Shown in pieces: positions 10,371 through 60,825 of a stretch of DNA of 64,000 nucleotides. Below the pieces are notes generated by a model that did no database searches, was not told the origin of the DNA, and saw only the letters and a list, made by a program, of their open reading frames with translations. Source of the stretch: Polytrichum commune (Eukaryota > Streptophyta > Polytrichopsida > Polytrichales > Polytrichaceae); contig OX485808.1 in NCBI GenBank assembly GCA_950295325.1, positions 38,770,527 through 38,834,526 of the forward strand. The letters run 5' to 3'. The position numbers were made by a program, and so were the translations under genes. Every line of letters begins with the position of its first letter. Position 1 is the first letter of the stretch.

Positions 10371-11090
10371 AAACACTCATATTTGAGTACTATATTATCA
10401 GGTGTGGCTCCAAAAACGGAAAATAAAAAGACATATGTTTATGTCAACATTTTAAGCTCAACAATCAACATAATCTGGATGAAGAGAGGAAGGTCTCGGG
10501 GGGGGGGGGTAGTCATTGGTTGGAGTAGCAATACACGTGCGAACAAATGATAGGGTATTTTAAAAACATGGGGGCTAAAAATTATAAATGGACTTAAGAG
10601 TAATATAGGGTATCAAAAATGGCACTGGACATCTTTAAAGTACTATAGGGTATGGAATAATAAGTAATTTGGAATTATAAGTAATGCAAGCCATTTTTCT
10701 ATTAACCCAAAGTAGAAATTTACATAATGATAGCATGTGAAAAAAAGAAGAGAATTGAAAGTAATACCCCCCTATAAAATAGTGGTTGTTCGCACCTATA
10801 TCCTTAACTTTTTAACACACTGCCCCCCCCGAGAGGAAGGTAGGGGGGAGGGGGGGGGGATATATGACCATTTAATGAGCAGGAGAATTTTTGCTCTGAC
10901 AATGAATAAGACATTGGCATATGAGGTCCAAAAATCTTTAGGAAAGCGGCTACAACCGGACTACAACCTTGATTTGGATTTGCTAACTGTCACATAATAA
11001 TCGTGTGTTTCATATTCTAGAAGTAGTGGGCTGATTGGGAAGAGTAACCATTCAAGACCCATCCACCTTGTCCATTGTCTTTGTTATCCT
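10371..11090 (+). mobile_element. Dispersed repeat 'family A', copy 1, split by a younger MITE
   Basis: Family A is my label for a non-coding dispersed repeat found here and near 14745-15115, 26365-26695, 32705-34640, 58510-58720 and 60575-60825. Shared blocks in order: ATTTGAGT, GGTGTGG(C/A)TCCAA or GTGTGGATGTAAG, AAAAGACATATG, (AA)AGAGATTGGACTAYGTGTT, CTCAACAATCAACATAAT plus a G-rich tract, TATATGATCATTTAATG, then GAATYTTYRCTTT, GATTTGGATTTG and AACCATTYAAGACCCATC. This copy is interrupted at 10495-10833 by the hAT-like MITE and continues afterwards. Terminal repeats of family A itself are not clear, so class and exact ends are unknown. Confidence 0.72.
10495..10833. mobile_element. hAT-like MITE (CTCGGGG terminus) nested in family A
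   Basis: A 339-bp element that starts CTCGGGGGGGG and ends CCCCCCCCGAG, with an 8-bp target duplication AGGAAGGT at 10487-10494 and 10834-10841. It interrupts family A exactly between the AATCTGGATGAAGAG block and the G-rich block; in the 14.7-15.1 kb copy these two parts are contiguous, which acts as an empty-site control. Same terminus class as 7569-7857. Inside are repeated TAGGGTAT motifs. No coding capacity. Confidence 0.85.
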
Positions 11091-14744: not shown

Positions 14745-15115
14745 AAGATTAAGGTAGATGGGTCTTAAATGGTTACATTTTCCAACTAGCTCATTTCTCA
14801 TAGGATTTGAAATACGCAATTAGCATGATAGTGTTAACAAATCCAAATTGAGGCCGTAGCTACTTCCTTCATAAATTTGGAGCTCACATGAATATCATAT
14901 TTATGGTGAAAGTGAAGATTCTTGTGTTCATTAAATGATCATATAGATTCCCCCTCCCCCTCCCCCCAATTATGACAATTGTTGAGCTTAGAATGCTTAT
15001 CATATATTTAACACGTAGTGCAATCTCTTTTAAACACATGTAACTTGGGTATCTGTTCTTGGAGCCACACCGAACTACATACCCACTTGAGTACATGTGT
15101 TTCAATAACAAAAAT
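14745..15115 (-). mobile_element. Dispersed repeat family A, copy 2 (uninterrupted)
   Basis: Reverse-complement copy of the family described at 10371. On the minus strand it reads GGTGTGGCTCCAAGAACAG, AAAAGAGATTGCACTACGTG, CTCAACAATTGTCATAATT, a G-rich tract, ATATGATCATTTAATGAACAC, AAGAATCTTCACTTT, GATTTGGATTTG and AACCATTTAAGACCCATC. It carries no insertion and so serves as the empty-site reference for the insertions at 10495 and 32870. Confidence 0.75.
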
Positions 15116-26300: not shown

Positions 26301-27551
26301 TCATGATGAACAGTTAGTTATGGTTTTGAATTAGGTGAGCAGGCCTAATTCAGTTACTTGTCTAAAATAGACATGTATATTTGAGTGGTGCGGCATAAGG
26401 TGTGGATTTAAGAACGGACACCAAAAGACATATGCTTAAAAGAGATTGGACTATGTGTTCAAAATTTGCTAACCATTCTAGACTCAATAGTCCACACAAT
26501 TGGGGGGCCTATGTGACCAAGTTATGGGTCACTTTTGAAAATTTATGTCAATTTAGGGTGGGCTCTAAATTTCTCTGCAACTGAATCTTGCTTCCTTATC
26601 CACATTTGCAGATCAGCCTAAATTAGAGTTTGCAAATCGGAGTTGTATTGATTAGCGAATGGGAATGGGAAGAAGTAACTATTTAAGACCTGTACTTTAA
26701 TGGAAGCTCACTATGTAAATGCTAATGCAGGTTCAGAAGAAGCTGCGCGCTATGTGTGCTGTCATGCGTGTGGCAGTGGCATTGGACCGTTGTGACACGA
26801 GTGCCATCCAGCATGTTCATGTCTTCCAGCAATCTGAAAGCATTATTCTTGTGAGATTTCCTTCTCACTTTTCAGGATACACTGGTTTTTTGACTAAAGA
26901 ATAGGCTTTGATCATTGCCTCCATATCAGCACTGGAAGGATTCAGGAGGAACTTGAACCTGAAAGATATATATAGACAGATTGACAAGTGCTATTCTAGG
27001 TACTAGTCAGTATGCTCACGCAGTGCTTTGAAAACTTGCATTGGTGAGTGGGCTAAGATGGGCAGATGAGCAGATGGTATGCTCCTGGGGAACAATATTT
27101 GAAGTGTTTGTGGGTTTTTAGTAGCCTGTAAATAAGCTGTGCTGCTACAATGTTGATCCTAAATTGTTTTTCTTGATATCCATGTCAGGCTGTGTCGCCT
27201 GCAACCGATCTGAAAACAGGGCAACCTCGAGATGTCTCCCTGGAAATTTGGGCTGCTCATGCAGAGCTTCCATATTTTGAGAAGGTCTCTCTTCTCAACC
27301 ACTTGTCGATGCTCTTGACAAACTCTCTATTTAGAAACAACAATTGTATACTGGAAAGTTTCAAACTGCAGCTTATATGGTGTTTGAATGGGCTTAGTTA
27401 ATAGAGGTTTGGTTACAAATAAAATGTGGATTCTCATACTGCATGTATGATATGGCAGATCTTTAAGCGGCGAACGTCTATTCTGATTGCGGATGAGCAT
27501 GACCTGGAGGGCTTGAGTGCAATTGTGACATCTGCTAGTCTCAGCTCATAA
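20342..27551 (+). CDS. Ppx/GppA family exopolyphosphatase (or ppGpp phosphohydrolase-like) protein
   Basis: Likely hydrolyses inorganic polyphosphate; a pppGpp phosphatase role is possible for this family. Secure exons: ...-22062, 22758-23060, 23620-23864, 24320-24481, 24610-24702, 25008-25310, 25536-25712, 25906-25947, 26181-26261, 26731-26850, 27189-27284, 27459-27551, all phase-consistent. From ATG 21795 the protein is 660 residues. Phosphate-binding AAVDMGTNS is at 95-103, the catalytic-Glu motif SGREEA at 198-203, and DIGGGSTE at 225-232. The C-terminal HD-like helical domain includes LHYVGMFINHKSYHKHSHYLI and RYHRKK; the usual His-Asp/Glu pair reads His-Tyr here. The 5' end is uncertain: the frame stays open to 21594, and a first exon at 20342-20371 (MLSTGSFLHA, donor GTGAGT) joins in phase to AG acceptors before 21633 or 21672, giving a Ser/Thr-rich, basic leader that could target an organelle. 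Intron 1 holds a minisatellite. Confidence 0.88.
20466..21175 (+). repeat. Minisatellite in intron 1 of the Ppx gene, about 91-bp unit, eight copies
   Basis: Copies begin near 20466, 20560, 20651, 20742 (5'-shortened), 20823, 20911, 21004 and 21097. Consensus features: GATTGAGCATCTGGACATAG, then ACTGTCACAATTCCTCTGTT, TTCGAAGAGAATTGCTCTG, and TTTGCATTTGTTCCATTAGG plus TAGCAAA. The units differ by scattered substitutions and are all in one orientation. The array fills about half of the first intron; each unit carries an AGGTAGC donor-like motif. No transposon ends flank it. Confidence 0.92.
22336..22694 (+). mobile_element. Retroelement with 5S rRNA-derived head, copy 1 (Ppx intron)
   Basis: The first 80-odd bases resemble plant 5S rRNA: GGATCCCATGGGGACTCCGA, then GAGGTTAAGCC (box A region, 22354-22364), ATAGTGCTTGGATGGG and GGATGGGTGACCT (box C, 22388-22400). 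The remaining 280 bp (GGTCCACCCAAT, GGGGTATC, CATTCAAGGTGTTCAC, GACCAACTTGAA, to GTGGCAACA) is not rRNA but is shared with the copy at 29308-29580. It is therefore a mobile element that carries a 5S-type Pol III promoter, either a Cassandra-type TRIM (solo) LTR or a 5S-derived SINE. No tRNA primer site, poly(A) tail or clear target duplication is visible, so the class is open. Confidence 0.8.
25291..25432 (+). repeat. Tandem duplication across an exon-intron boundary of the Ppx gene
   Basis: The last bases of the exon ending at 25310 plus 50-odd intron bases (TTCCCGCCTTGCTAAG|GTTAGACTC ... GATGTAGATTCACAT) are repeated directly downstream with a 71-bp offset and near identity. A second copy of the splice donor thus lies at 25382. 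Using it would add 71 nt and shift the frame, so the first donor must be the productive one. High identity points to a recent event. Confidence 0.92.
26365..26695 (+). mobile_element. Dispersed repeat family A, copy 3, inside a Ppx intron
   Basis: Lies in the intron between exons 26181-26261 and 26731-26850. Reads TATATTTGAGTGGTG, GGTGTGGATTTAAG, ACGGACACCAAAAGACATATG, AAAGAGATTGGACTATGTGTT, CTAACCATTCTAGACTCAAT, a short G tract, and ends GGAAGAAGTAACTATTTAAGACC. The middle is internally shortened relative to the 10.4-kb copy. Confidence 0.72.
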
Positions 27552-31060: not shown

Positions 31061-32704
31061 GTCGACCAGACAGATGAGATAACTGCTAGATAGTTGGGAA
31101 GAAGCAGAAATGGGCACAAATAGGTTTCCCGGAAAGGGTTTCCCAGTTAATGCGTACGATAACCAGAGGCGGCTTAAATCAAACAGATACAGACCAGGGC
31201 GAGTGTAAGCTGGCTGGACCAAGAGAATCTTCGGAGAAACACGGGAAGCACAAATAGATTCCTCGCAACCGGAAAGTACAGCATCCATGCAGCAACCCCT
31301 GAGAAGGTGGTCTAGCGACGAGGATATGATGTCTTCACTGCAACGAAACTATCTGCATCAACATTTAGAAAGTAGAGGGAATAGTTTTCTGCAACCCTTG
31401 TGCAATAACCACTGTCACATCAAATGAGGAATGCAGTAGCTAGCAGCCTGTAGAAAGTGCTGCACACATTCTCCCTTGCAAGCACGTTCTCAAGCGCACA
31501 GACTACTTTTGGGCGCAAATTCGGACAAGGTATTATAACTCGGAAGAAGCAGAAATACGGGGAGCCGTAACTGTAAGCAGAAGAAAATGAAGAGACAAGC
31601 AGAAAAAATTGCCAATGCATAGAAGGGCAAAGGCTGCCGAATCCAAACAGATCATAACAACAGAGCATCTGTTGCAGGAATAGGTACTAAGTTAGACCAA
31701 AAGAAATCTCCAAAAAAACTCGGGAAGCACCAGGTGCTGACGATGCAAAAATAGGATCACTACTGTTGCTTCCTCGCAACAAGAAAAGTAACATGACTGC
31801 AAGGCCTGCCGGCGATGAATTAGTAAGCCATTTTTTTCTGCAGAAAGCTGTTACTCGAAACTCTCGAGTTCAATATACCTGACGGTTGCAGCCGATCGGT
31901 GTGATGCGAGACAATTTACAAACCCCCGCTCGCCATGAACAAAGCTAATTATTACTCCACGACGACGACGATAACAACTTTCCTCACTCAACGCTCCACG
32001 CACGTAGCTCCGAGCAAACCCTCAAAACCGCTGAAACTATGATGCAACTCTTGTGCAGTCACTCCTCATAAGTTATGTTACTACTTCGCAGCAGCAGCGG
32101 CAACAGCACCGGCCCCAGCTGCATCCTATTGAGTATTGTCGCGGAAATAGCACCGATTTTCAGCCTCGCCACTAATTGCACGCGCTTTCCTTCCACCTCC
32201 CGACTACTGCACACCGACTGCTCTCGAATCTAGGGGAGGCTCCGGATTCAGCTCATCAATCCCTCCGACTCAAGCAATATCTGCTTCTGGACGGCACTAA
32301 CTGCAGCGGCGCTACCCATACAAACATTCATATATGCATACTAATACATATTGTCCTACTAATACATCATCTCAGCTACTACCTTAACATACCATATGAT
32401 ACCATTTCTGTAATCCATATACACCCGCGCTGTGTCGAAAGTCTACTACAGCACCATTCATGTCGTGAAGTCATCCATCCTACAGGGCTATGTGGCTACT
32501 TCTATCGATTTCTAATCGGACACGTAGTCTGTCAAACTGACTGGCCGCCCGACCACCATGATTGAGCCTGGAGGTGGCATTGTAAGTTACTCTAGACTCT
32601 ACACTCATCAACATACTGAATTGGGTGACTTTTACAGCATCTCTGGCCCCCAGTACCGAGCCTGGTAAAGCACGCGAAGGCAGACGTGCCTCACTCGAAC
32701 ATAC
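31061..32704. other. Intergenic DNA upstream of the membrane-protein gene
   Basis: No gene found. The first 700 bp hold further degraded repeat units (see the array at 30445). The rest, to 32704, has no recognisable feature. Confidence 0.5.
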
Positions 32705-33104
32705 CAATAATTTGGACACCTGTATTTGAGTGGTATGTGGCTAGATGTGGGTGTAAGAAATGGCACCAAAAAGATACACTTTTGAAAGAGATTGGACTAC
32801 GTGTTTAGAAGATGCTATTCATTGTAGGTTCAACGTATAAATTGGTGGCGGAGTTATATGATCATTTAGTGTGAGTTTTCATGTACATCGTTCGTTCACT
32901 GGATTCTAGTGGGAATAAGGACAAACTTGTCCAAATGTAGATGGAATTTGGTGGGGTAGGGTTCATATGTGCTAACTAGGCTACTTTCATCTTCTCAAAT
33001 CCGGGCCCACATGTTAACCTCCTCCTCCAGGTTAAAACCTTCCCCTTCTCAAATTGCTCTTCAATCCTTTGGTGACCGGCACTTGTAGGTTAAAAAGTGC
33101 TCTA

Positions 33105-33496
33105 AGGTTGAAGTATCCATAGTCGACCAAGTCCATTTAACCACTCACTAGGTCATGTAATGCCCACATGCATGAGATCTATCATTTTTAGGCAAACAAA
33201 GTTGAAGGTTATGTGATGGCCGCTTGTGATTGATTACCCTCATAAGAGTTTTGATAATTGCCATAGCCAAGGAGTAGCATTGAGATGAGCGGTTATGCTT
33301 ATCCTGTAGATCGACTATGTGTTACCCTAAAATTTATGGTTTGAAATTTGTAGCAGTTTCCAAATTCATAATTTTCATAAAAGAAATTGCATTCTCCTTA
33401 GAATATATTTCTCTTCACAAAATAAAATCCTCTGCTATTACTCCTCCTAAATAGATGCAAACTCTCTTATTTTATTGGTTGTAGATGCCTCAACCT
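33105..33496. mobile_element. TA-target MITE nested in the left arm of the foldback
   Basis: 392 bp, flanked by TA (33103-33104, 33497-33498). Termini are AGGTTGAAGTATC and, from the right, AGGTTGAGGCATC (11 of 13). The empty site is preserved in the right arm, where AAAGTGCTTTAGTGGG (minus strand, TA at 33900-33901) is uninterrupted. The terminus resembles AGGTAGAAATACC of the element at 38926-39347. Confidence 0.85.
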
Positions 33497-34017
33497 TAGT
33501 GGGCACATGAAAGTCTAGCAACCCATGTCCATGGCCCTCCACGTTCTAGTAGGCCACCAAAATGTGGTTGGTTAGTGGCTTGTGCTTAGGGTGAGACCCT
33601 GATCACACCAAACTCTCTGTTTGGTTCTAGCCATGAAATTGTTGGGGATTATGTTGAGAAAGAGAATTGGCCCACCACTTTTCACACTATCCGGAGATGC
33701 CGACGGATGGTGCCAGTAGTGGCCGGTGTGATCAACCCCTGAGACTCTATGTAGGCCAATTGCCCACTACATTCTAGATAGCATTGGATTGGAGGTGCTC
33801 TCATGTAGATAACCACAAGCCACCAACCAACCACATTATGGTGGCCTATTAGAATATGGAGGGCCGTGGACATGGGCCACTAGATTCAAATGCACCCACT
33901 AAAGCACTTTCAAACCTACAAGTGCCAGTCAATGAAGGATTGAAGACCGGTTTAGGAGGAGGAGGAGGAGGAGGAGGTTAGTAGGCGGGGTTGGATTTAA
34001 GAAGATGAGAGTAGCTA

Positions 34018-34340
34018 CACTAAATATGATATTTAGTGTTTGATTTTATTTAGTGTTGTGACCACCCTATCCTACTCAACACTAATTTTCAATTCTTTAA
34101 TAATTAGTGTTAGATATAAATGCGCCACCACCTTCCCTACCGCCACCTCCCTTCTCCTTTTATCATTTTTTTTTCATATCCTTACTAACACTAAATTCGT
34201 GCATGTAACTTCCACATATTACCATAGTTGATATTAAGTGTTTGAGTTTACATTTAATGTTACTTACTTTCATAGGGTTAGTGATATTTAGTGTATGCGT
34301 TCGTATTTAGTGTATCAAGCACTAAATATCATATTTAGTG
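34018..34340. mobile_element. TA-target MITE with palindromic ends, nested in the right arm
   Basis: 323 bp, flanked by TA (34016-34017, 34341-34342). The 21-bp terminal inverted repeats are perfect, and each is itself an odd-length palindrome: CACTAAATAT, one central base, ATATTTAGTG. The left arm of the host element preserves the empty site GCTAACTAGGCTAC at 32971-32984. A second copy is at 42366-42686, with long matching interior blocks (CTCAACACTAATTTTCAAT, TTAATGTTACTTACTTTCAT). Each end alone could fold into a hairpin. No coding capacity. Confidence 0.92.
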
Positions 34341-34640
34341 TAGTTGGCACATATGAACCCTACCCCACTAGTTTTCACCCATATTTGGGTAAGTTTGTCC
34401 TTATTCCCACTAGAATCTCGTGAGTTAGCAGCCTACATGAAAACTCACCCTTAATGAGCACAAGAATCTTCACTTTAATGCTAAATGAGATATTTATAGG
34501 AGCTCCAAAAAGTTTGAGGCAAATGGCTACGGGCACGATGTAGAATTGCTATCATCTTGCATTAATAGCGTGTTTCATATCCTACCAAGAATGGGTGTAG
34601 AAAGAATAGTATCCATCCAAGGCACATCTGCCTCATAAAT

Positions 34641-35656
34641 TATCAACTAGGCACTAACTTAGAGGCGAGGACTTTTGGCACATAATTGGCCCTTGGGTGC
34701 TTACTAGAGTTGATGGCACAATGATATACACATGTTACCATATTGTGACGGTCACTCCATGGGCAGGGTCATCAATTATTAGTAAACCATGTCTTTTTAT
34801 ATCCAATCAAGAAAAGACATGTCAGCTGATTAATTGCTTGGCTTCACCAATACAAATTAGGTATGAAGTGTAGGCAAGCTTTGCCATGGGCGACTATACT
34901 ATCATCGATGAAAATACCATTCATAGCGATGAATGCCTATTAATGGACATGTTGGTGAGGCCATGCATGGTGTTGCGCCTCCTCTAGCCAATTAGGATTG
35001 GCCATGTTGGCCGGACCACTATGAACTACACTAATTATCCTAATTAGTGTGTGTGGTATTGTTTCCTTAGACACACTGACACTATTTTGTCAAGACTCAA
35101 AATTAGAGAGGGTTGAAATGTTTATTGAGTGATACTAGCTTCATAAATACATGCTCATTTACCATACATTTCAAGAGAATTAGTGTGTGCTCTAAGGTGC
35201 TTGTAGAGCGATAAAATTGAATATATGCAAACACATGCTTGTCAGTGAATAGTGTTAGGATGAATAATGTTGGCGCTATGAATAGTATTTTCAATGAATA
35301 ATTAATTGGGATAATCAATGTGGTTACTAAAATGCACTACCGAGTAGCCCTAAGGTGAAAAAAACTCTCCACTTGCTTACCTCCTTAAGGAAGCCAATGT
35401 TCATACGATGCCATCTATCTTGAACTAGGTATTGGATGTGAGGAGGCATGCCATGGGCTATAGTAGATGTCCAACCTACCATGTTGCAATAGCAAGGCGA
35501 CAACTGCTCCTTAATAGTGGTGGGGTCATATAAGGTAGGATCATCACTTATGAGTGAAGATGTGCCTCTTATATCCAATAAAGATAAACATGTCATCAAA
35601 TTGTTTCGCTTGACCACCACGATATTTCAATTTGATGGCCAGGTCCTAGGAGATCT
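34641..35656. other. Intergenic DNA, nothing recognised
   Basis: No gene or clear repeat border. Two passages (34800-34990 and 35520-35650: TATCCAATMAAGA, AGACATGTCA, TTGCTTGGCTTCACCA/TTCGCTTGACCACCA) look like a diverged duplication. Confidence 0.4.
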
Positions 35657-42365: not shown

Positions 42366-42686
42366 CACTAAATAGGACATTTAGTGTTTAGTTATATTTA
42401 GTGTTGTTACCATCCTACCCAGCTCAACACTAATTTTCAATTTCTTGATAATAGTGTTAGACATGAATGCATGTGCCGCTACCTTCGTTATTGCCACCTC
42501 CCTTATTGTATCATTTCTTTCTTATCCTTACTAACATTAAATTCAAACATGTAACTTCCACATATCATCATAGTTGATAATTAGTGTTTGAGTTTACGTT
42601 TAATGTTACTTACTTTCATAGGGTTATTGGTATTTAGTGTATGCGTTCATATTTAGTGTATCAAAGACTAAATATCCTATATAGTG
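42366..42686. mobile_element. TA-target MITE with palindromic ends, second copy
   Basis: 321 bp, flanked by TA (42364-42365, 42687-42688). Ends are CACTAAATAGGACATTTAGTG in pieces on the left and, from the right, CACTATATAGGATATTTAGTC in pieces. Interior collinear with 34018-34340: ACCCAGCTCAACACTAATTT, TTCCACATATCATCATAG, TTAATGTTACTTACTTTCAT, TTTAGTGTATGCGTTC. Slightly more diverged at the termini than the 34-kb copy. Confidence 0.9.
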
Positions 42687-43865
42687 TAGTTGGTATGTGC
42701 ACCGAAGAATAGGTGGGACCTCGTCTTGTGCATTAGTGGGAAGGGGGGGGGGGGGGTTGTGTCCTTGCGCCAAGTGGCATGCAATGGTGTGGCAGTGGTT
42801 GGTTTGGGCCTGAGTTTTCAAAGCTTTTTAGACTCAAAGCTTGATCTTCCTCTTTTTAGAGGCCTTTTCCTTTTATTCTTCATCAAAATGAAGCAAGGGT
42901 GGGTGAGATTTTTCTTCATCACAAGTCTATTGCATCACTAAACATAACATCCAATATTGTAATCATGGATTTAGTGCTATATTCTACACATCTAGTTAGT
43001 TGATTGGAATTTGAACAAGGAATATGTATGATTATCAAAGCAGTTTGATACCCCGCTATGTTTCTTTGCTATCAAATTAAAGCTTAGTGGCAAGGGTTGG
43101 CATAAAGGTATAAAATCAAGTATTGTAAAGTGATGATACATCCTGTCGTATCAAATATCCCTCTCTTATGACAACTACATTCAAAAGATAGTCCAACACA
43201 TGACTATGTTCTGCTCAATGATTACTATTACAACCAAATGATAAAGCAATGATATGATATGTAGGCTTATATACCTCATTAGATATTTGCTAGAAGGTAG
43301 TCTCAATGTCCCAACTATTATTCTTGAATTTGTGTACACATCAAATCACTAGTCAAAGCAACATAATAACTTTCACTAGTGTAATATTTCAAGAGTAAAA
43401 GATCATTCAAACATGAGCAATGCACTATTGATGGTGTTCAAAATGTAAAGAGCCAACCTCGCTTGCACCCGTGCTTGGGTATACAAACTTGCTCTTTTGC
43501 CACATTGTATACATTTTTATAAATAATAAGAACATCTTGTACACCCAACACCATGCACACTTAGCACATATCTACTGAGCCTTAGCGAATAAACTAAGCC
43601 AAGCATTTTCTTCTCCAAGCATGTAAAAGAGTTTTCATTGGAGGTGCTTAGGTTTTGAGTATTAGTTTAGTAAGGTGCAGTGGTTGCCTTAGGTTATGGA
43701 AACCCTAAATTGTGGAGCATGATAACTTTCTTGACCATGATTAGTTAACTCTGGTTAAGTACACTGTGGTGTCTAACATTGGTGAAGAGTTCACTAAGTA
43801 TGCCAAACTTTGTAGGTGGTTTAATCACTTTGTCAAAAAATTCACATTTTACTATTTATATAGTT

Positions 43866-55706: not shown

Positions 55707-56848
55707 TTACTTGGACATCTTTGCACAAAGCTCTCGAACAAGCTTCGCTGCAACCATGGCAGTCATTCCATCCACAGTGTCCCGTTGCGGGTTGAACTCC
55801 ACAACGTCGCCTCCAACTATGTTACCCTTCAGATTCTGCAAGATGTTCATGACATCGCGGAAAGAAAGACCCCCTGGCTCAATATGAGAGACACCTGGAG
55901 CATATGCCGGGTCAAGGCAATCCACATCAATTGAGACATAAACACCTTTCACACCCTCACCAAGATGCAGATTTTCAAGCTTCTCCCGGTCACGATTGAA
56001 TGTCCTCATCTCATGTTGCTCCACACCAAACTTCTTGGCTTGGTCTCGTTGTTCTTGAGTTACTGAGCGCAGACCAACCTGTACAAGCCGCCGTGCATGG
56101 CCACCTTCCATAATACGGGCAAATGGAGAGGCATGCGAGTAGTGCTTCCCCTCATAAGCATGATAGATGTCGGGGTGCGCATCAATATGGAGAATATCTA
56201 CAGGTCCTCCAAGATACTCAGTGACGCCCCGCACCACTGGGAATGAAATAGAGTGATCTCCTCCTAGCACAAGCGGCCTAAGCGGTGGCTCGTCCATGAT
56301 CAGTTTCACTGACTCTGTGATTGTTCGCATGAGCAGTTCATCTTTAACACCACAACTCCGCATCCCCTGAATTGGCACATCTCCTGCATCTGTCAAAATC
56401 CGTACATCCTCCAACTGCTTCCCAGTTTCAGTGGTGGAATTGGTGCTACCACACCAAATGGCCTCTCGGATCACAGGAGGCGAGAAGGCTGGACCCTGGC
56501 AAATTCAAATCATCGTTCACGTTCAGGTACAAAAGCGACCTCCGTCGAATTAACTGCCCATAACTACGGTATCACAAAACACATTAAGATGCGAGAGGTA
56601 CCAAACTTGCAACACAACTTTCAGAACACCTGAAGAAAAGAAGAGTTGTGCCCAAGGGGAACACCAAGCAGGCAGCTAGTAGCTACGGCGCCTCCTTTTG
56701 CCCTCACAACCTCCGCCTTTAGTCGCGCAAGCTCTCGTACCAATGTGAGTGACGCCTCCACCACCCGTTGTTGCCCTTGTTCCGGTGACACAAACGATTG
56801 ACTGTACCCACGCTGCTGCTGCCACAATTTACCTAAGGCTCTCCTCAT
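55707..56848 (-). CDS. ARGAH: Arginase (L-arginine amidinohydrolase), probably mitochondrial
   Basis: Hydrolyses arginine to ornithine and urea with a binuclear manganese centre; plant enzymes act in mitochondria. Two exons on the minus strand, 56848-56630 and 56495-55707, joined in phase (...SSFLQ then GPAFSPPVIREAIW), give 335 residues, the normal plant length. Metal ligands are present: GGDHS at 151-155, DAHPD at 178-182, SIDVDCLDP at 261-269. Near the end VVEFNPQRDT and DGMTAMVAAKLVREL match plant arginases, which resemble agmatinases in sequence; agmatinase activity is the main alternative. The N-terminus MRRALGKLWQQQRGYSQSF is Arg/Gln-rich and fits a mitochondrial presequence. One coding intron is few for a plant arginase. 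Further non-coding leader exons are likely at 57.5-58.0 kb. Confidence 0.95.
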
Positions 56849-59423: not shown

Positions 59424-60574
59424 TAATTCGCTTGAGATAAAACTCAAGGTTGAACTTTTGATATTTGATTTGATCTCATATTCTTGATGGAAAAAAAATT
59501 ACAATGTATCATTAGTTTGCATCTGTGTAGGAGGAGAAATAGCGGGGAATTATATTTTTCTTGCGAATAGAAAAAACTCTAAGGAGAATGCCAAAAATGG
59601 TTTTTTTTCCACGAATATGGAAATTGCTACAAACTTTGAAGCAATAAAGTTAGTGTAACACATAGTGGATTTATAGTTTAACCCAAAACCGCTCATCTGA
59701 AAATTTAATGCTTGGCTACAATAATTGTCAAAAAACTTATGAGGGTAATCAATCATAAGTTGCCACCACATAAACTTTAACTCCATTCGCTTAAAAAATG
59801 TAGATCTTAGCCATGTTGGCATTACATGACCCTAGTGAGCAGTTAAATGAACATGGTGGACTATGGATGCCTCGACCTTATCAAATGAATGTCCTATCCC
59901 ATCCCCACACCATAAGCTCTGCATGTCGTCGTAAACAACTACTTGTTTTGGAGCTTTTGATCAGTGACAACATGACAACTATTTAGTGTACCTTGACCTT
60001 GTTCTAAATTTGTTGGGTAGCACATTCCCAACCTTATCATGAGTGTACCTAGTGTATAAGCACAATATTATGCTCCCAAATTGGATGAATTCTTGAAGAG
60101 AATGATGTCTTGAAACAATCAACTTGTGATCTCATGTTAAGTGTAATATTGGATGGTGCAAGGTTATGCTCATCCATACCGACTCTTATTCCTTGTTAAT
60201 TGGTCATAGGAACATTGTCTTGACATATGTGATGCACTTTCTTCCACCCAAGTATGTGTTCACAACATTTACCATTGGGGAGGGCAAAGACATTGATTTC
60301 TATGATAGTTGGGAGATTATTTTCTTAAAGAAAATTTCCCACCTACATCGGGATCAAAGATCTTGAATTAGTCCATTTCGTATATTATTTTAGTATGAAC
60401 CAATAAGAAACTTATAAGGGTTGATTTTACTGCATCCCCGATTGTAGGACATGTTAGGAAATGAAATCCCATCCGATACGGTAAGTAAGCTTTAAATGGA
60501 AACTTTAAGCTTTGGACCCATTTCTCCTAGGACGCAAAACACACAGTTTGTGGGAAATGATTGGCAATTCCAAA
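59424..60574. other. Intergenic DNA, nothing recognised
   Basis: No gene or clear repeat border. Confidence 0.5.
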
Positions 60575-60825
60575 TCGAGTTAGTGGCCATTCAACTCATA
60601 ATTTTCGGAAGTTGTATGAAAATTTGATTCATTGTCAAAGCGAAGTTTCTCGGTGACGTCAAATGATCCTATAGGTCCCCTCCAATCATGTTGACAATTG
60701 AACCTAGAATGGTTAACACATTTGGAGCACATAGTCCAATCTCTTATAGACATGTGTTTTTTTATGTCCATTCTTACATCCACACCGAAGCACACACCAT
60801 AGGCCCAAATATAGTTGTTCAATTA
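60575..60825 (-). mobile_element. Dispersed repeat family A, copy 6
   Basis: On the minus strand: TATATTTGGGCCTATGG, CGGTGTGGATGTAAGAATGG, AAAACACATGTCTATAAGAG, ATTGGACTATGTGCTCCAAA, TAACCATTCTAGGTTCAATT, GTCAACATGATTGGAGGGG, CCTATAGGATCATTTGACG, then TTCGCTTTGACAATGAATCA. No nested insertion. It is the best-preserved copy of the left half. Confidence 0.75.

Follow-up and report, generated by a model that had tools for sequence, protein, structure and literature searches.

A nest of MITEs in Polytrichum commune and the repeated filling of one site within a MITE family

The window analysed here is a stretch of 64,000 nucleotides from Polytrichum commune, and the genome searched is a 408-Mb assembly of 64 contigs, seven of which measure 42-78 Mb. 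Positions 32678-34633 of the window very probably hold a nest of six non-coding cut-and-paste MITEs from five families, namely A, D (in two copies, D1 and D2), C, E and B. The outermost element is a TA-type MITE of family A. Its left piece, which includes a TTA target, lies at 32678-32868 (+) and its right piece at 34454-34633 (+), the terminal TA having decayed to GA on the left (32676-32677) and to CA on the right (34634-34635). Between these pieces D1 (32869-33588, +) comprises family D positions 1-328 with C inside, the last 73 positions being missing. C (33105-33496, +) is a 392-bp TA-target MITE with TA at 33103-33104 and 33497-33498. D2 (33589-34450, -) is a second D, inverted, at the TTA 33586-33588 of D1, so that one D lies within another. 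D2 in turn holds E (33595-33739, +), a 145-bp element in the D2 terminal repeat with TGA at 33592-33594 and 33740-33742, and B (34018-34340, +), a 323-bp TA-target MITE with TA at 34016-34017 and 34341-34342 and the target CTAG. The right copy of the TTA target (34451-34453, unstranded) has the same letters as 32866-32868. Elsewhere in the window an arginase frame is present at 55707-56474, its best matches are two solved arginases (E 1e-134 and 1.6e-129), both of which we take to be plant enzymes.

The positions of the inserts give the nesting order: A contains D1, D1 contains C and D2, and D2 contains E and B. The identity of each element to its own family consensus rises broadly inwards (A 83.4%, D1 89.2%, D2 87.6%, C 90.1%, E 93.8% and B 97.5%), and this broad agreement with the nesting order counts in favour of a nest of six elements. 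Counted against it are the consensus identities of the two D copies, by which the inner D2 does not come out younger than D1, the imperfections in the target copies of A and the terminal repeats of E, and the additional, unobserved step that the loss of the D1 tail demands. Of C and D2, either may have arrived first. Each element would have been moved by transposase made elsewhere in the genome, and target motifs, tested here for B, would have decided where the inner elements landed.

The original prediction described four families, in which a 1,581-bp foldback split A and carried one MITE in each arm. The arms are indeed inverted copies, three segments matching far above chance (BLAST E 2e-26, 1.5e-21 and 1.2e-16). 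The outer TTA copies (32866-32868 and 34451-34453) are real, as are the 392-bp and 323-bp inserts with TA on both sides of each, and each arm lacks the insert of the other, so that the arms serve as mutual empty sites as claimed. Read by eye, the insert borders also recur in other copies: among 20 fetched copies of B the left TA is found in 19 and the right TA in all 20, and among 20 of C the left TA is found in 19 and the right TA in 14 strictly, or 16 if two shifted cases are allowed. The nested insertions and the outer order are upheld, as are both TA targets and TTA as the target within A. The supposed foldback spans 32869-34450 (1,582 bp), but it is not a single unit, being made up of two D copies. 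Five families and six insertions are found in place of four families; the supposed loop between the arms is a fifth family, E, which had been missed. The borders of A had been placed at 32705 and 34640, flank searches and alignment move them to 32678 and 34633.

Searches with each flank place the ends of A near 32677 and 34633. An alignment of 20 copies with the window copy at 14751-15100 shows A to be about 345 bp long, its ends resembling AGGTAGA and adjoining TA wherever they are readable. The insertion point is crossed without interruption by all 21 A copies, and by eye the TTA is kept there in 14 of the 21. Since all copies run through this point, the D1 insertion took nothing visible from A. 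Family A is very abundant: further copies lie in the window at 10373-11069, 14751-15100, 26370-26692 and 60480-60818, and it is also matched in seven of 11 fixed 10-kb stretches.

Family D is found mostly as a single-armed MITE. The outer arm was used to fetch 20 loci, and 18 of these contain one D of about 400 bp whose two ends carry GGGTGAGTTTCCATGTAGG-like repeats. In L030 the right end of D is lost, and this locus was left out of the D profile; L029, where two inverted D copies lie next to each other, was left out of the D alignment. Among 34 full-length D copies from all loci fetched by then, 19 have identical 3-bp flanks (18 TTA or TAA, one GAA/GAA) and 15 have non-matching flanks. The TTA or TAA flanks of 18 of the 34 agree with the 3-bp TWA target copies of Tourist-like or PIF-Harbinger elements. 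In the nest, D1 runs to D position 328, within GCTTGTGC-TTA, and the D2 terminus GGGTGAG begins there on the opposite strand. With E removed, the junction reads TTA-GGGTGAGACTC..., which is the end of D2. Another locus (L146, 96-704) contains three pieces of D, spaced about 182 bp apart and covering D from position 264 or earlier up to 400; these appear to be a MITE tail turning into a tandem repeat.

Taken by itself, the sequence that separates the arms has matches at many places in the genome. In an alignment of 28 rows (27 other places and the window) the E copies share sharp borders. Their target copies are TGA/TGA in the window and, by eye and uncounted, TNA-like in many of the 28 rows. 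Two or more E elements are present within one locus of about 950 bp in L041, L042, L051, L057 and L059, nearly back to back in L042 and L057; E may favour its own neighbourhood. Outside the nest the window contains a second copy of C (59514-59878) and a second copy of B (42366-42688).

Insertion of D into D is also found elsewhere. A 21-base pattern of the D-in-D junction matches 78 places at no more than three mismatches (control 9). Fourteen of these were fetched: nine are nests at D position 326-328, and L124, L128, L129, L130 and L131 are not. The pattern of the other junction matches 44 places, of which, given a control of 21, about half may be fortuitous. A second fetch covered 11 loci, including one matched by both junction patterns. 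L152 and L162 have both junctions, with D2 inverted as in the window, while L153, L155 and L159 have D2 and the D1 tail only, L154 is partial, and L156, L157, L158, L160 and L161 are not nests. The intact D-in-D site, searched as an exact pattern of 28-30 bases, is found at 29 places; so strict a pattern cannot provide a denominator. The junctions were searched at D 326-328 only, and this site is a candidate hotspot at most; 13 D targets (including L029, beside another D) yield a weak motif that ranks it third of ten TTA sites. L128 (G000:C5:25062196-25062521) has no D match but five junction-pattern matches at intervals of 58-101 bp, and is apparently an unrelated tandem array.

B-type elements recur at one TA of D. 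The junction of D with the TIR of a B-type insert is found at 382 places (control 4) and the empty D site at 832 (control 1). The site is filled in 382 of 1214 recognisable D copies, about 31%; the ratio of 382 to 832 comes from two 22-base patterns at no more than three mismatches, each of which misses drifted copies. In an independent set of D loci fetched by the other end, five of 17 carry an insert at the site (it is unreadable in L065 and L067). We read 23 inserts with D on both sides, from 16 of the 20 junction-fetched loci, five of L061-L077, L119 and the window. L138, L139, L144 and L145 were dropped from the junction-fetched set, as they yielded no insert flanked by D at both ends. 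The terminus CACTAAATA is common to all 23 inserts, which form five groups unlinked by BLAST at 1e-5, with 3, 11, 5, 2 and 2 members. The first four groups are present in both orientations, which implies at least nine insertions at one dinucleotide. Some members of one group may share a single insertion event. The D site is a natural count of repeated hits, with at least nine insertions and about three in ten recognisable sites filled.

The target motif of B, approximately AAC-TA-GTT, was derived from B copies lying outside D, 18 of 20 being used (L080 and L088 were dropped). This motif scores D position 109 at 11.6 and so ranks it first of the 26 TAs in D, the next scoring 5.9; a score this high is reached by four of the window's 4087 TAs. 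The filled site is the one TA of D that a motif learned elsewhere would choose. Occupancy was sampled in 11 fixed 10-kb stretches and the window, 174 kb in all. Targets outside D are filled in two of ten cases at scores of at least 11 and in one of seven at scores of at least 11.5; at a low cut-off of 8, with D included, four are filled and 52 are empty. The comparison of 2/10 outside with 382/1214 in D lends no support to a docking signal in D over and above the motif, the outside sample being too small to show or exclude a difference. Small as it is, this sample gives no reason to look further than the motif and the abundance of B-type elements. The target preference of MITEs, and possibly target exhaustion, can be measured in this way within one genome. 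A short palindrome at window 35026-35053 resembles a B-type element end, with no element between its halves.

The 382 junction places might instead reflect one composite element of D and a B-type insert that amplified, B not being newly inserted in D2. Insert and D distances do rise together in the five members of group B3 (r = 0.87 over 4 and 6 pairs), and in group B5 both distances are 0.249 for its one pair. In the largest group, B2, however, they show no positive relation (r = -0.15 and -0.37), and the division into five groups, four of them in both orientations, also argues against a single amplified element. On a tree of 52 D copies the occupied and the empty ones are intermingled: their distribution needs 16 changes (shuffled mean 17.3), or 21 for all labels (shuffled 22.3); this tree is weakly supported, with five of 49 inner branches well supported and those alone forcing five changes. 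In the window B is 97.5% identical to its consensus, as against 87.6% for D2. Amplification as one element is therefore very improbable and we reject it for the whole set, though B3 points the opposite way. For the inverted pair, a true foldback family, whose 1,581-bp unit jumped whole into A before B and C entered the arms, would account for the inverted arms with matching outer TTA copies and for the intact empty site in A copies. Yet D elsewhere is single-armed in 18 of 20 loci, the loop is the separate family E with target copies of its own, and the arm junction is a D terminus on an internal D TTA, as in the intact nests L152 and L162. The distances of the window D1 and D2 to the inverted pair in L126 are 0.24 and 0.27, and their median distances to solo D copies are 0.20 and 0.22. 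The window pair is thus farther from L126 than from solo copies, and the two nests are separate events. Together with the single D of about 400 bp elsewhere, this makes the arms two members of a family and not the halves of an element. The inverted pair does not recur as a unit in the copies compared, and we reject the foldback family as scarcely credible. Short nested repeats are easily mistaken for one foldback, and it is the genome copies elsewhere that disentangle this nest.

For D2 nested in D1, the missing tail of D1 requires a further step. The tail is absent in the window and in L126; L126 has TAA/TAA as its outer copies and TCA as its inner target copy. Among same-orientation nests it is present in three (L118, L120 and L127) and absent in one (L125); among inverted nests it is present in two (L152 and L162) and absent in two (the window and L126), the other loci being truncated or ambiguous. 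The last 73 bp of D1 would have gone after the arrival of D2. D2 and D1 have direct terminal repeats of about 41 bp, and one route would be a deletion between these. By the other, a transposase would have paired the left end of D1 with the far end of D2, leaving the tail behind on moving, so that the pair, once nested, entered A as a foldback unit. The outer TTA/TTA without a D1 tail in the window points to such composite movement, as does the difference between the outer TAA/TAA and the inner TCA in L126. Deletion between terminal repeats, however, predicts the same flanks and also retains the outer target copy of D1; moreover no second copy of the window pair was found in the comparison with L126, and the tail counts are too few. 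Either route is plausible, and composite movement is a serious possibility that we lean slightly against. More tentatively, and on balance doubtfully, self-nesting at the recurrent internal TTA may make an ordinary MITE a mobile foldback, which then landed in A; the window and L126 would be separate births, and L152 and L162 the preceding stage.

Among the families of the six-element nest, D, and perhaps E, resemble Tourist-like MITEs (PIF/Harbinger) in being short, non-coding and of high copy number. D also has 3-bp TTA/TAA target copies, as well as terminal repeats starting with GGG, which are typical of Tourist-like MITEs. E differs from them in its mostly TCA/TGA-like target copies and imperfect terminal repeats. 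A, B and C resemble TA-target MITEs (Stowaway or other Tc1/mariner-like elements), being short, non-coding and of high copy number. TA target copies are found for all three, in the case of A at the readable ends of other copies, with GA/CA in the window. The conserved end of Stowaway elements is CTCCCT. The termini of A, B and C (AGGTAGA, CACTAAATA and AGGTYGA) are without this conserved 6-bp terminus. In contrast to the choice of any TA by TA-target MITEs, B-type elements need CTAG. PIF and mPing are described in the available text of PMC2836001 as preferring targets that extend beyond 3 bp.

MITEs within MITEs, including insertion into the same family, are known from rice and maize (Jiang and Wessler 2001, as cited in the available text of PMC3695323 and PMC10664404), and 11% of rice MITEs are cited there from the same work as lying in multimers. 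The idea that nested MITEs find a safe haven is likewise in print (PMC3695323, PMC10664404, available text). Compared with these nests, the present case concerns one dinucleotide of one family, which five insert groups together occupy in about three of every ten copies that can be recognised. In carrot, different DcSto MITEs found at exactly one position were taken as insertion hotspots, at 292 sites or 1.6% (PMC6881990, available text). The carrot sites were compared between plants, whereas here one site in a repeat family is compared between copies of one genome. The literature, in the text available to our search, contained no case of one site within a MITE family filled to this degree, which does not prove that none exists. 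MITE nesting, self-insertion and parallel insertion are already known, and what stands out here is the repeated filling of one D site.
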